From: Prochlorococcus sp. AG-355-O17
Lineage (GTDB): Bacteria > Cyanobacteriota > Cyanobacteriia > PCC-6307 > Cyanobiaceae
Assembly (NCBI GenBank): GCA_003280655.1
Contig: QCEK01000013.1
Span: 1-39,522, forward strand
DNA: 39,522 nt
Direction: 5' to 3'
Under the pieces are notes generated by a model. It ran no database searches, was not told the origin of the DNA, and worked only from the letters and a program-made list of their open reading frames with translations. Below, in pieces: positions 36,368-38,866 of the stretch. The first letter of the stretch is position 1, and every line of letters begins with the position of its first letter. Made by a program: the position numbers and the translations under genes.

Positions 36368-37954
36368 ATGAGTCAAACATCTTTAAAAAAAGAACGAGAT
36401 CCTTCAATATTAATTTTAGATTTCGGATCTCAATATTCTGAATTGATTGCAAGAAGAATTAGAGAAACTAATGTTTTTTCTGTTGTAGTAAGTAATTGTA
36501 TTTCAATTGAGGACATTAATGGTATTAAACCTAAAGGGATCATTTTGAGTGGAGGCCCAAATTCTGTATATGAACAAAATGCTCCAAAATGTGATGAAAA
36601 AATTTTTAATTTAGGAATTCCTATTCTTGGTATATGCTACGGAATGCAATTAATGGTCAAAGAACTTGGAGGAACTGTTATTTCAGCAACCAAAAAAGCT
36701 GAATATGGTAGAGCACCAATAAATATAGATCAAGAATCTGACCTTCTTTATGATGTAGAAGATAAATCTATAATGTGGATGAGTCATGGCGATTCAATTA
36801 ATTGTTTGCCTGATGGATTTACTAAGATTGCTCATACCGAGAATACGCTCCATGCAGCAATTTCAAATGATGTAAAGAAATTATTTGGTGTACAATTTCA
36901 TCCTGAAGTTATTCACTCAGAGTTTGGGATGACTGTTATAAAAAATTTTGTTTATAAAATTTCTCATTGTGCAGCTGATTGGACAACCGAAACCTATATA
37001 GAGGAAGCTATTCCGAGGATAAGAGAGCAAGTTGGTAATAAAAAAGTTTTGCTCGCCTTGTCAGGAGGAGTTGATTCCTCAACTCTTGCTTTTCTTCTAA
37101 ATCAAGCAATTGGCAACCAGCTTACATGCATGTTTATAGACCAAGGTTTCATGAGGAAAGATGAACCAGAATTTTTAATGAATTTTTTTGATAAGAAATT
37201 TCACATTAAAGTTGAATATATTAATGCCAGAGAAAGGTTTATTGCCAAATTAAAAGGGATTACTGATCCAGAACAAAAAAGGAAAATCATAGGTGAAGAA
37301 TTTATTAGAGTATTTGAAGAAGAAAGCAATAGATTGGGACCTTTTCAGTATTTAGCCCAAGGTACTCTTTATCCTGATGTTATTGAAAGCGCTGGTACTA
37401 ATATTGATCCTAAGACCGGTGAAAGAATAGCTGTAAAAATAAAGAGTCATCATAACGTGGGTGGATTACCAAAAGATTTACAATTTAAATTGGTTGAGCC
37501 ATTAAGAAAACTTTTTAAGGATGAAGTTCGAAAAGTGGGAGCTGCTTTAGGTTTGCCGGATGAAATCATCAAAAGACATCCATTCCCAGGACCGGGATTG
37601 GCTATAAGAATTTTGGGAGAGGTAAATAATGAAAAACTTGATTGTTTAAGAGATGCAGACTGGATAGTAAGAGACGAAATTAAAAAAGCAGGTCTCTACA
37701 ATGATATTTGGCAAGCTTTTGCAGTATTGCTACCGGTTAAAACTGTAGGAGTTATGGGAGATAAAAGAACTTATGCATGGCCAATAGTTTTACGTTGTGT
37801 ATCAAGTGAGGATGGCATGACAGCGGATTGGTCAAAAATCCCTTTTCAGATTTTGGAGAGGATTGCAAATAGAATCGTAAACGAAGTAGATTCAGTTAAT
37901 AGAGTTGTTTATGATATTACAAGCAAACCTCCAGGAACTATTGAGTGGGAATGA
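36368..37954 (+). CDS. guaA: GMP synthase (glutamine-hydrolysing)
   Basis: Converts XMP to GMP with glutamine and ATP. The 528 residues hold a class I glutaminase domain with Cys90 in GICYGMQLM, the histidine/glutamate pair in [12 protein letters not shown], the ATP-pyrophosphatase P-loop [15 protein letters not shown] (about residue 232) and the C-terminal dimerisation domain with [14 protein letters not shown]. The end [14 protein letters not shown]-stop is the universal guaA terminus and is intact. The final 23 bases reappear at 38072-38094 (see repeat). Third purine gene of the window, apart from purL/purF. Confidence 0.97.
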
Positions 37955-37955
37955 C
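37933..37955 (+). repeat. Proximal copy of a direct repeat at the guaA 3' end
   Basis: The 23-bp sequence covers the last seven codons of guaA and one following base. It matches 38072-38094 at 20 of 23 positions. The three differences fall at third codon positions of Thr and Glu and inside the stop codon (TGA versus TAA). It is the first arm of a 139-bp period and a candidate attachment-site half. Confidence 0.85.
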
Positions 37956-37992
37956 GGAAAATTGCTTGATTTCATCAAAAATGGAACTAATA

Positions 37993-38014
37993 GGTTTGTC
38001 ACCGGTTTGTCACG
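37993..38014 (+). repeat. Tandem 11-bp repeat between the guaA end copies
   Basis: GGTTTGTCACC (37993-38003) is followed directly by GGTTTGTCACG (38004-38014), so ten of eleven bases repeat. A further ACGGAAA occurs both at 37954-37960 and 38012-38018. Short tandem sites next to a duplicated gene end are the shape expected of recombinase arm sites, but no binding protein is known here. Confidence 0.7.
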
Positions 38015-38071
38015 GAAATTTTACTTTATAGAAGTCAATGATACCAACGACTTTGAAGCATCAAAATTGGG

Positions 38072-38094
38072 AGGAACCATTGAGTGGGAGTAAC
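38072..38094 (+). repeat. Distal copy of the guaA 3' end
   Basis: It again encodes Gly-Thr-Ile-Glu-Trp-Glu-stop in a different frame from guaA (offset 139 bp, not a multiple of 3). It sits at the end of a 62-codon open frame (37905-38093) that overlaps the guaA end, which I regard as non-coding apart from this fragment. It is probably the displaced original 3' end of guaA or an attachment-site copy. Confidence 0.8.
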
Positions 38095-38152
38095 TTAACA
38101 AATTTTTTAGAAAATTTATTATTTTTATTTTATGTAAGAAATATTTATTGTA

Positions 38153-38866
38153 ATGAGCGAGATTATTAAATTAAGTAGATCTACTGTCGAGAAGTATCTT
38201 AGTTGTCCAAGATGTTGTGTACTTGACAAAAAATATAAAATAAAACCGCCATCACTACCATTTACTCTAAATATCGCCGTAGATAATTTGTGTAAAAATG
38301 AATTTGATTACTATAGGAAAATTCAGGAGCCGCATCCTTTATTTATTGAATATGGTATAGATGCTGTTCCTTTTCAACACGAAGATTTAGAACGTTGGAG
38401 AAGTAATTTTCAAGGGATAAGATATAGGTCAATAGAATATAATTATGATTTTGGTGGCGCTGTGGATGATATATGGCAGAAAAAAAATGGTGATCTTATT
38501 ATCATTGATGTGAAGGCAACATCTAGAAATAATTTTGATTGGTCTGAGACTTTTCATAAATACGAATATGCAAAAGCTTATAAAAGACAATTAGAAATGT
38601 ATCAGTGGTTATTTAAACAAAACGGTTTTCAAGTAGCTAAGGAAGCTTATCTTTTATATTTCAATGGAAAGAAAAATGAAGAGTTATTTAATTACCAATT
38701 AAATTTTGATGTTCATCTAATTAAATTAGATTGTTCTACTTCATGGGTAGAAAAAAAGATAATTGATACAGCCAATTTATTACGTTCGGATAATTTTCCC
38801 AAACCCTCTTTAAATTGTGAATACTGTAATTATTTAAAGAAGCGTTGGCAGTTATCTATAAATTAA
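38153..38866 (+). CDS. PD-(D/E)XK nuclease, Cas4/RecB-like with Fe-S-type cysteines
   Basis: A 237-residue predicted nuclease. The N-terminal LSRSTVEKYLSCPRCCV holds Cys18, Cys21 and Cys22. The catalytic core has Asp105 in FGGAVDDIW, then Asp119-x-Lys121 in GDLIIIDVKATS, and the Gln146-x3-Tyr150 motif in KRQLEMYQWL. The C-terminal CEYCNYLKKRW adds Cys222 and Cys225. This Cys-core-Cys layout is that of Cas4 and the AddB nuclease, where four cysteines hold a [4Fe-4S] cluster. No cas genes, CRISPR array, helicase or AddA partner are nearby, so a CRISPR role is not supported. It lies just downstream of the guaA duplication. Confidence 0.83.
   Translation: MSEIIKLSRSTVEKYLSCPRCCVLDKKYKIKPPSLPFTLNIAVDNLCKNEFDYYRKIQEPHPLFIEYGIDAVPFQHEDLERWRSNFQGIRYRSIEYNYDFGGAVDDIWQKKNGDLIIIDVKATSRNNFDWSETFHKYEYAKAYKRQLEMYQWLFKQNGFQVAKEAYLLYFNGKKNEELFNYQLNFDVHLIKLDCSTSWVEKKIIDTANLLRSDNFPKPSLNCEYCNYLKKRWQLSIN

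Follow-up and report, generated by a model that had tools for sequence, protein, structure and literature searches.

A gene-less 139-base stretch behind guaA in Prochlorococcus is most likely a miniature mobile element at an integration hotspot

The 139-base gene-less stretch behind guaA in the Prochlorococcus genome examined here is most likely a miniature mobile element, located at a hotspot that is occupied in relatives by small cargo units, defence genes or integrase-bearing elements. The window, i.e. the whole stretch of DNA that was analysed, comprises 39,522 nucleotides of Prochlorococcus sp. AG-355-O17 (contig QCEK01000013.1), whose genome assembly (G000) amounts to 1.59 Mb in 32 contigs. 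The locus is very probably a guaA site for tyrosine recombinases. Our full model, which we regard as probable, is that positions 37933-38093 are an integrated mini-element without genes and that it belongs to a guaA-targeting tyrosine-recombinase family of picocyanobacteria. For the window copy, a non-autonomous mini-element that was acquired horizontally is a better reading than a scar in decay.

Results

The guaA end is duplicated in the window

In the window, guaA (36368..37954, on the forward strand as are all features below) is an open reading frame for a GMP synthase of 528 aa with matches to PF00117 and PF00958, and its 3' end is the attachment site. The sequence at 37933-37955, AGGAACTATTGAGTGGGAATGAC, which includes the final 22 bases of guaA and one more base, is found again at 38072-38094 as AGGAACCATTGAGTGGGAGTAAC, with 20/23 identity and a start-to-start distance of 139 bp. 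Sequence comparison thus confirmed what an earlier, sequence-only reading of the window had claimed. That reading also held that the differences between the copies are silent and that about 116 bp with a tandem 11-bp repeat lie between them. Both points were verified: the copies differ at ACT/ACC (Thr), GAA/GAG (Glu) and TGA/TAA (stop), all three changes being silent, and GGTTTGTCAC occurs at 37993 and 38004, which gives an 11-bp period. The 116 bp between the repeats leave no room for integrase or transfer genes, and both att sites are kept.

Chance was rejected as the origin of the repeat because a 21-base degenerate form of it, with at most 3 mismatches, has two sites in the window, which are the two copies, against an expectation of 0.01. 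When no more than one mismatch is allowed, the core ATTGAGTGGGARTRR has two sites in the whole genome G000, again the two copies; a reversed control pattern has one site.

The proximal core, or left attachment site (37933..37954), is recognised by its sequence and the repeat match as the guaA end ...GGAACTATTGAGTGGGAATGA. It is followed by the left end of the mini-unit (37955..37974), which is kept among mini-units and is unlike those left ends of larger inserts with which it was compared. The next 98 bp or so (37974..38071) recur at the right end of certain gene-bearing inserts of relatives, as judged by blastn (cassette positions 20-117) and insert tails. They contain the two tandem 11-bp repeats, GGTTTGTCACC GGTTTGTCACG (37993..38014), which were identified by their period and by comparison with shuffles and are candidate arm-type recombinase sites. 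The distal core, or right attachment site (38072..38093), carries the chromosome's original guaA end ...GAGTAA, as indicated by the repeat match and the polarity counts given below. The sequence at 38094..38152 is the original downstream sequence of guaA, since its homologue lies directly 3' of guaA in empty-site relatives. The right border of the hotspot is g1 (38153..38866), a conserved PD-(D/E)XK nuclease-like gene (PF12705 at 1.3e-10).

No tRNA was found in the window. A 62-aa open reading frame at 37905-38093, which ends with the distal GTIEWE and stop, is unlikely to be coding, since the mini-units vary by single-base length differences and by 10-11 bp deletions.

The site is empty, cargo-filled or integrase-bearing in relatives

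A 251-base query spanning the repeat had matches in 168/200 genomes of the genus. We classified 128 genus genomes, the window genome included, by the region downstream of guaA. This sample is non-random in that 15 compact query matches and further left-end carriers were taken on purpose; the share of window-type units in it is therefore inflated, and their frequency is better taken from the 27/265 genomes described below. The site is empty in 33/128 genomes, with 49-79 bp between guaA and g1. Inserts without an ORF of 90 aa, here called gene-less, were found in 20/128, 11 of which begin with a window-type unit while the other 9 are of other kinds. Cargo without a guaA-type integrase, as judged by tblastn with three integrases at E up to 1e-20, is present in 56/128, with a window-type unit first in seven. 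An insert with a guaA-type integrase is present in 5/128, and the remaining 14 sites, in which g1 was not reached, form the unresolved class. At the occupied sites where g1 was reached, guaA and g1 are 0.1-13 kb apart. The g1 gene lies downstream of guaA in 111/128 genomes and was not reached in the 14 unresolved and 3 of the integrase-bearing ones.

The claim of the sequence-only reading that the guaA 3' end is a target for tyrosine-recombinase integration thus holds in Prochlorococcus, where relatives have empty, cargo-filled and integrase-bearing sites. The comparison of guaA downstream regions that it had proposed yielded both alleles it had named, i.e. single-copy empty sites (33/128) and integrase-bearing ones (5/128). 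Because empty, cargo and integrase-bearing alleles all exist, the results speak against both an arrangement fixed in every related genome and a conserved functional RNA, the two outcomes which that reading had set against itself.

The stop codons reveal the polarity of insertion. AGTAA is present at the core end in 29/33 empty guaA ends, in 5/41 occupied guaA ends and in 29/41 last cores (Fisher 2.5e-11 and 9.6e-8), where the 41 occupied loci are those with g1 and with the last core within 130 bp of it. In the window, GAG-TAA is found in the distal copy and GAA-TGA in the proximal one. The shift of AGTAA from the guaA end to the last core indicates that the chromosome's own end was moved distally and that the element supplies a new one. 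These counts agree with the earlier proposal that such an element brings a replacement gene end and leaves the original as a repeat.

Window-type units are related across divergent flanks

The left end of the unit, with at most 2 mismatches, is present in 27/265 genus genomes; a reversed control gave 0. Of these carriers, 26 were examined, including the window and leaving out G081. A second core within five mismatches was found in 24/26, and the cores are spaced 139-140 bp start to start in 20/24, the other four spacings being 128, 130, 138 and 151 bp. No gene is enclosed in any of these 24. While 20/26 copies adjoin guaA, those of G034, G178, G200 and G187 are the last before g1 and those of G261 and G078 are located in the middle of an array. 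The second core of the G167 copy is damaged. In G187, only the left part of the unit is found (L217, near 784-856), followed directly by the g1 spacer with neither repeats nor a second core; from its sequence, this remnant is an apparent true scar of a window-type unit.

The alignment of unit and flanks with G213 is the single strongest test of movement. Over the 117 bp between the cores, the window unit and that of G213 (L212) are identical at 113 positions (97%), and the flanks are identical at 82% for guaA, 54% for the spacer and 80% for g1. The units of G188 (L003) and G167 (L010) each match that of the window at 113/117 positions as well, next to guaA identities of 89% and 87%, respectively; their right sides are not comparable because another insert follows the unit. 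In L004 and L007, unit identity falls below that of guaA (92 vs 94% and 88 vs 92%). In all, the unit is the more similar part in three of the five alignments that included flanks, and guaA in the other two. Altogether, 19 units showed 64-97% identity to that of the window, above 92% in three only. The mean identity over 20 units is 0.80, below the 0.89 for guaA, which suggests recent transfer of some copies rather than a general constraint. The window unit and its closest copies are thus related horizontally. The high identity of the unit with 80-82% in the guaA and g1 flanks, together with the scattered lineages of the copies and their first, middle and last places in arrays, agrees with a mini-element that is moved or exchanged whole.

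The distribution of inserts was mapped on a flank tree with 101 rows, for which guaA ends and g1 were used and the inserts omitted. The empty/occupied label requires 30 changes (mean of shuffled labels, 28.1) and the window-type label 8 changes for 8 rows (shuffled labels, 7.8), on a tree in which 48/97 inner branches are open, i.e. poorly supported, and to which flank recombination could add changes. L099 and L108 have identical flanks in the tree columns, yet the former is occupied with a 7854 bp gap and the latter is empty with a gap of 71 bp. The 7.8 kb insert of L099 consists of restriction/helicase-type genes, and the two loci form a natural pair for comparison.

It is conceivable but unlikely that the stretch is a decaying scar, the 139-bp remainder of a larger element that entered the guaA site in an ancestor and lost the rest of its sequence there by deletion. 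The right 98 bp are indeed equal to the right ends of gene-bearing inserts, the gene-less inserts L098, L136, L120 and L085 look like ends fused by deletion, and the G187 remnant with its left part only demonstrates that decay in place happens. On the other hand, movement of the mini form agrees with the presence of the same left end in 27/265 genus genomes with 20/24 two-core copies of 139-140 bp, with the 97% identity of the window copy to that of G213 despite 80-82% in the flanks, and with eight changes for eight rows on the tree. For the same uniform length and high identity, and for the varied positions of copies in arrays, the "ancient insertion mostly lost" of the sequence-only reading is not the best account of the window. 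The first origin of the mini form may well have been a deletion of this kind.

The unit could also have spread when strains exchanged their guaA regions by ordinary homologous recombination rather than by a site-specific process, as the conserved flanks in guaA and g1 could provide homology and the scatter of occupancy equals that of shuffled labels. We consider this a little less likely still, for the 97% stretch stops at the cores with only 54% in the adjacent spacer, copies are found inside arrays between other units (L214, L216), and the exchange of the stop codon takes place inside the core. Finally, it is highly improbable that a conserved functional RNA, a terminator or a guaA regulatory element includes the distal copy: the unit is more alike than the guaA flank in three of the five aligned pairs, but its left end is present in only 27/265 genus genomes, the site is empty in 33/128, the mean identity of the units is lower than that of guaA, and an RNA element or terminator was rejected since no Rfam family matched in the window at gathering scores, the folding of 140 nt of the window unit (RNA parameters, one unit) was not better than that of shuffles (z +0.8), and no terminator-like site was found around the repeat stretch.

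The first 20 bp of the window unit are conserved among mini-units, including those with TTTTACGTG-class repeats (L211, L213, L215), and no larger insert with the left end of the window unit was found among the left ends compared or the 26 carriers examined. To judge from these sequences, the mini-unit likely represents an internal deletion of a larger element, a parent since lost. An origin in which a left and a right end were fused at the 11-bp repeats was rejected for the window unit because its first 20 bp differ from the compared left ends of larger inserts. Such a fusion fits the other gene-less inserts L098, L136, L120 and L085.

Tandem 11-bp repeats are frequent at the two ends of inserts

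Paired 9-mers with a period of 11 bp and at least 8/9 identity were found in the left ends of 38/73 non-mini inserts, compared with 0.6% of shuffles and 1/33 empty sites. These left-end pairs start mostly 36-41 bases past the guaA stop. The 11-bp pair is present in 10/15 window-type units and in 46/65 right ends, for which cores with 3 mismatches or fewer were accepted (shuffles, 0.8%). The remaining 35/73 left ends and 19/65 right ends are below the threshold. The sequence of the repeat varies by element (TTTGTCACG, TTTGTTGCG, TTTCCCTCA, TTTCACGTG, TTACACGTG, GATCACACAC and others) and the two copies within one pair mostly agree.

By their likeness to those of lambda-type integrases, the 11-bp repeats are perhaps arm-type recombinase sites. 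The similarity of repeats was compared with that of integrases for 13 integrases, giving an r of 0.58, and two control stretches gave 0.62 and 0.34. Since one control stretch reached 0.62, co-variation does not single out the repeats and lends no support to binding. Certain left-end classes are common to cargo-only units and integrase-bearing elements (L050 with L055; L125 and L082 with L155), which leads us to infer help in trans.

guaA-type integrases are encoded close behind guaA in relatives

Tyrosine recombinases of 454-491 aa are encoded downstream of guaA in G027, G009 and G096. PF00589 was detected in the two of these proteins that were scanned together and in that of G096 by a separate Pfam search; in G009, two small ORFs are ahead of the integrase. 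An alignment of the three integrases gave hits in 7/266 genomes of the genus (E up to 1e-20). The five strong matches (G009, G096, G027, G228 and G021) are all located 0.2-1 kb downstream of guaA on the same strand. The two weak ones are about 23% identical and have no guaA in the flanks examined, guaA being about 15 kb away on the same contig in G054 and on another contig in G088. Among 400 family genomes from 59 genera, there were 14 integrase matches at E up to 1e-30. Of the 11 that are 36% identical or more, 10 are closely preceded by guaA, G228 being included in both the genus and the family counts; a broken copy at this level of identity in G349 has no guaA in the flank examined, nor do the three matches at about 25% identity. 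The 10 guaA-linked integrases include a broken one in G475 and one with an internal stop in G341.

No guaA-type integrase was detected in the window genome with the integrase alignment at E up to 1e-20, and present mobility of the window unit would therefore need a helper. Likewise, none was found beside the TTTGTCACG repeats of the window unit. A 389-aa protein with PF00589 occurs in many of the 200 genus genomes, among the matches listed, and in G000 at C5:65330-65752. It resembles a core tyrosine recombinase and might conceivably act on the units. A small serine recombinase (PF00239) is encoded in L052 and L053; tblastn with that of L052 detected a relative in L189, L218, L220, L222 and L223, with no match in L219, L221 and L224.

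Viral sequences were searched as well. Alignment and degenerate peptide patterns, by which distant relatives can be missed, identified no relative of the integrases in viral contigs. The core pattern occurs in 24 viral contigs, none of which has guaA, g1 or an integrase in the stretch examined by tblastn, and its surroundings there resemble unrelated coding sequence. Two exact patterns specific to the unit had 0 matches in viral contigs, and phage records contained no copy of the unit. Because neither viral contigs nor phage records hold a copy and viral contigs hold no integrase relative, we know of no vehicle for the unit.

Cargo includes defence-type genes and extra MreB genes

The inserts contain 201 ORFs of at least 90 aa, among which a guaA-integrase profile matched only the 3 known integrases. 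A single-linkage cluster holds 40 ORFs from 25 loci, in which TPR-type and exported-looking proteins are mixed; its sole member scanned, from L121, has TPR and methyltransferase domains. Related exported-looking proteins that start like MKKRTAFIGAILSLIPLGQP were seen in L035, L037, L038, L069 and others, several of them as tandem one-gene units. Pfam was scanned with 137 ORFs, leaving out the 40-ORF cluster and the 24 ORFs of three integrase loci. These ORFs matched 81 families, and PF00589 is not among the 25 families listed, where a single member could be missed. The families listed include MreB in 5 ORFs, the EPSP-synthase family in 4 and sulfotransferases in 4. The EPSP-synthase-family proteins are presumably MurA-like. 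Extra MreB genes are present at guaA in L047, L069, L096, L142 and L143, and EPSP-synthase-family genes in the same loci except L142; both are odd cargo for a mobile site.

Restriction-modification genes at guaA are of type I (L104), type IIG (L049, L099) and type III (L138), and type II methyltransferases are found in the inserts of L118 and L142. A DISARM-like helicase is encoded in L099. An insert protein of L096 matches the MkoA/MkoC models and is, we assume, Mokosh-like. There was no match for L074 or for two of the ten candidates picked, L102 and the first ORF of L142. The proteins in these scans were picked for length or look and thus give no frequency.

Discussion

We propose that the element is composed of a short left end, the pair of 11-bp repeats and a right end, together with a core that matches the end of guaA. 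Recombination within ATTGAGTGGGA would provide guaA with its last codon and stop from the element and would leave the chromosomal GAG-TAA behind as the distal core. The repeats, as probable arm-type sites, would bind the integrase, and an integrase from elsewhere would move the units. A 139-bp circle would be an unusually small recombinase substrate, which speaks against the model, and the mini-unit offers a concrete minimal substrate for asking how small tyrosine-recombinase elements can be.

If the stretch is a miniature mobile element at a hotspot, it indicates an overlooked route of gene exchange. Prochlorococcus would gain a site of gene exchange besides tRNA genes, one with precise boundaries at which a genome can be scored as empty, mini, cargo or integrase. 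As restriction-modification and other defence genes are present there in some genomes, the site bears on the gain and loss of phage resistance in streamlined ocean bacteria.

Integrons hold gene units, many of them small, in tandem at a single location of the chromosome, and these units have a recombination site in common. The guaA arrays resemble them in their small tandem units and shared site at one place. They differ in that the site is the end of guaA, repeats are found near both ends of a unit, no resident integrase was found in most arrays with the guaA-type searches and among the Pfam families listed, and the window unit (one unit, RNA parameters) shows no folded attC-like structure. 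We tentatively entertain, with somewhat less than even confidence, a double-stranded integron-like system, in a genus whose genomes are reduced, in which small units, often of one gene and alike in their ends, stand in tandem, rare full elements provide the recombinase in trans, gene-less 139-bp units cross divergent lineages as minimal tyrosine-recombinase elements and the site also collects anti-phage systems.

Targeting of guaA and elements without integrase are both of already known kinds. According to the parts of the sources consulted, the guaA 3' end is a known integration site with the consensus GAGTGGGA (PMC7775301; PMC5704250; PMC8138268); genomic islands at this end are attributed to Song et al. 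2012 (as cited in PMC7775301), guaA IMEs are listed in PMC5704250 and an epsilon15 integrase cluster is given in PMC8138268. In these same parts, the islands share with the present locus the site and a tyrosine integrase in full elements, and the 8-bp GAGTGGGA lies inside the direct repeat here. The window unit has the direct repeat and the empty allele of such islands and lacks their integrase. The present system is distinct in that most of the occupied sites classified have no guaA-type integrase, short units are often in tandem and a unit can be as small as 139 bp. Among 10 proteins scanned from each of two full elements, which are part of their ORFs, there were no conjugation or mobilisation genes. 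CIMEs, as described in the part of PMC5704250 consulted, are devoid of integrase and transfer genes, retain the att site on either side and accrete in tandem at a gene end; the window unit likewise has neither kind of gene and has both att sites. In contrast to CIMEs, many units here have one gene or none and share their ends, and both an ICE/IME parentage and movement in cis are hypothetical.

A family of picocyanobacterial elements was reported by authors whom we take to be Flamholz et al. Its tyrosine recombinases are found at tRNA-Phe or tRNA-Cys, often with a small serine recombinase near, in the portion of the report available (PMC10187409). To that extent, it is alike in its Prochlorococcus/Synechococcus host, tyrosine recombinase, variable islands and nearby small serine recombinase, whereas the guaA-type integrases are located behind guaA. 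In the literature searched (titles and abstract openings, with few subscription papers), we found no report of guaA elements in Prochlorococcus, nor of integrase-poor guaA arrays or the mini-unit, and the part of PMC2784084 consulted held no mention of guaA or GMP synthase.

Tycheposons, as far as the consulted text of PMC10872708 goes, are tyrosine-recombinase elements of Prochlorococcus with cargo that use 7 tRNA genes and measure 4-200 kb. They share the genus and the cargo-bearing, tyrosine-recombinase nature of the elements described here and differ in that the present site is guaA instead of a tRNA gene and the window unit is 139 bp instead of 4-200 kb. Six other large tyrosine recombinases of the genus (L054 and L056-L060) were compared with the guaA-type profile, with a weak match for L054 and no match for the rest. 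The stretches of L056, L057, L058, L059 and L060 contain tRNA-Ser or tRNA-Asn, and these five recombinases may be tycheposon-like.
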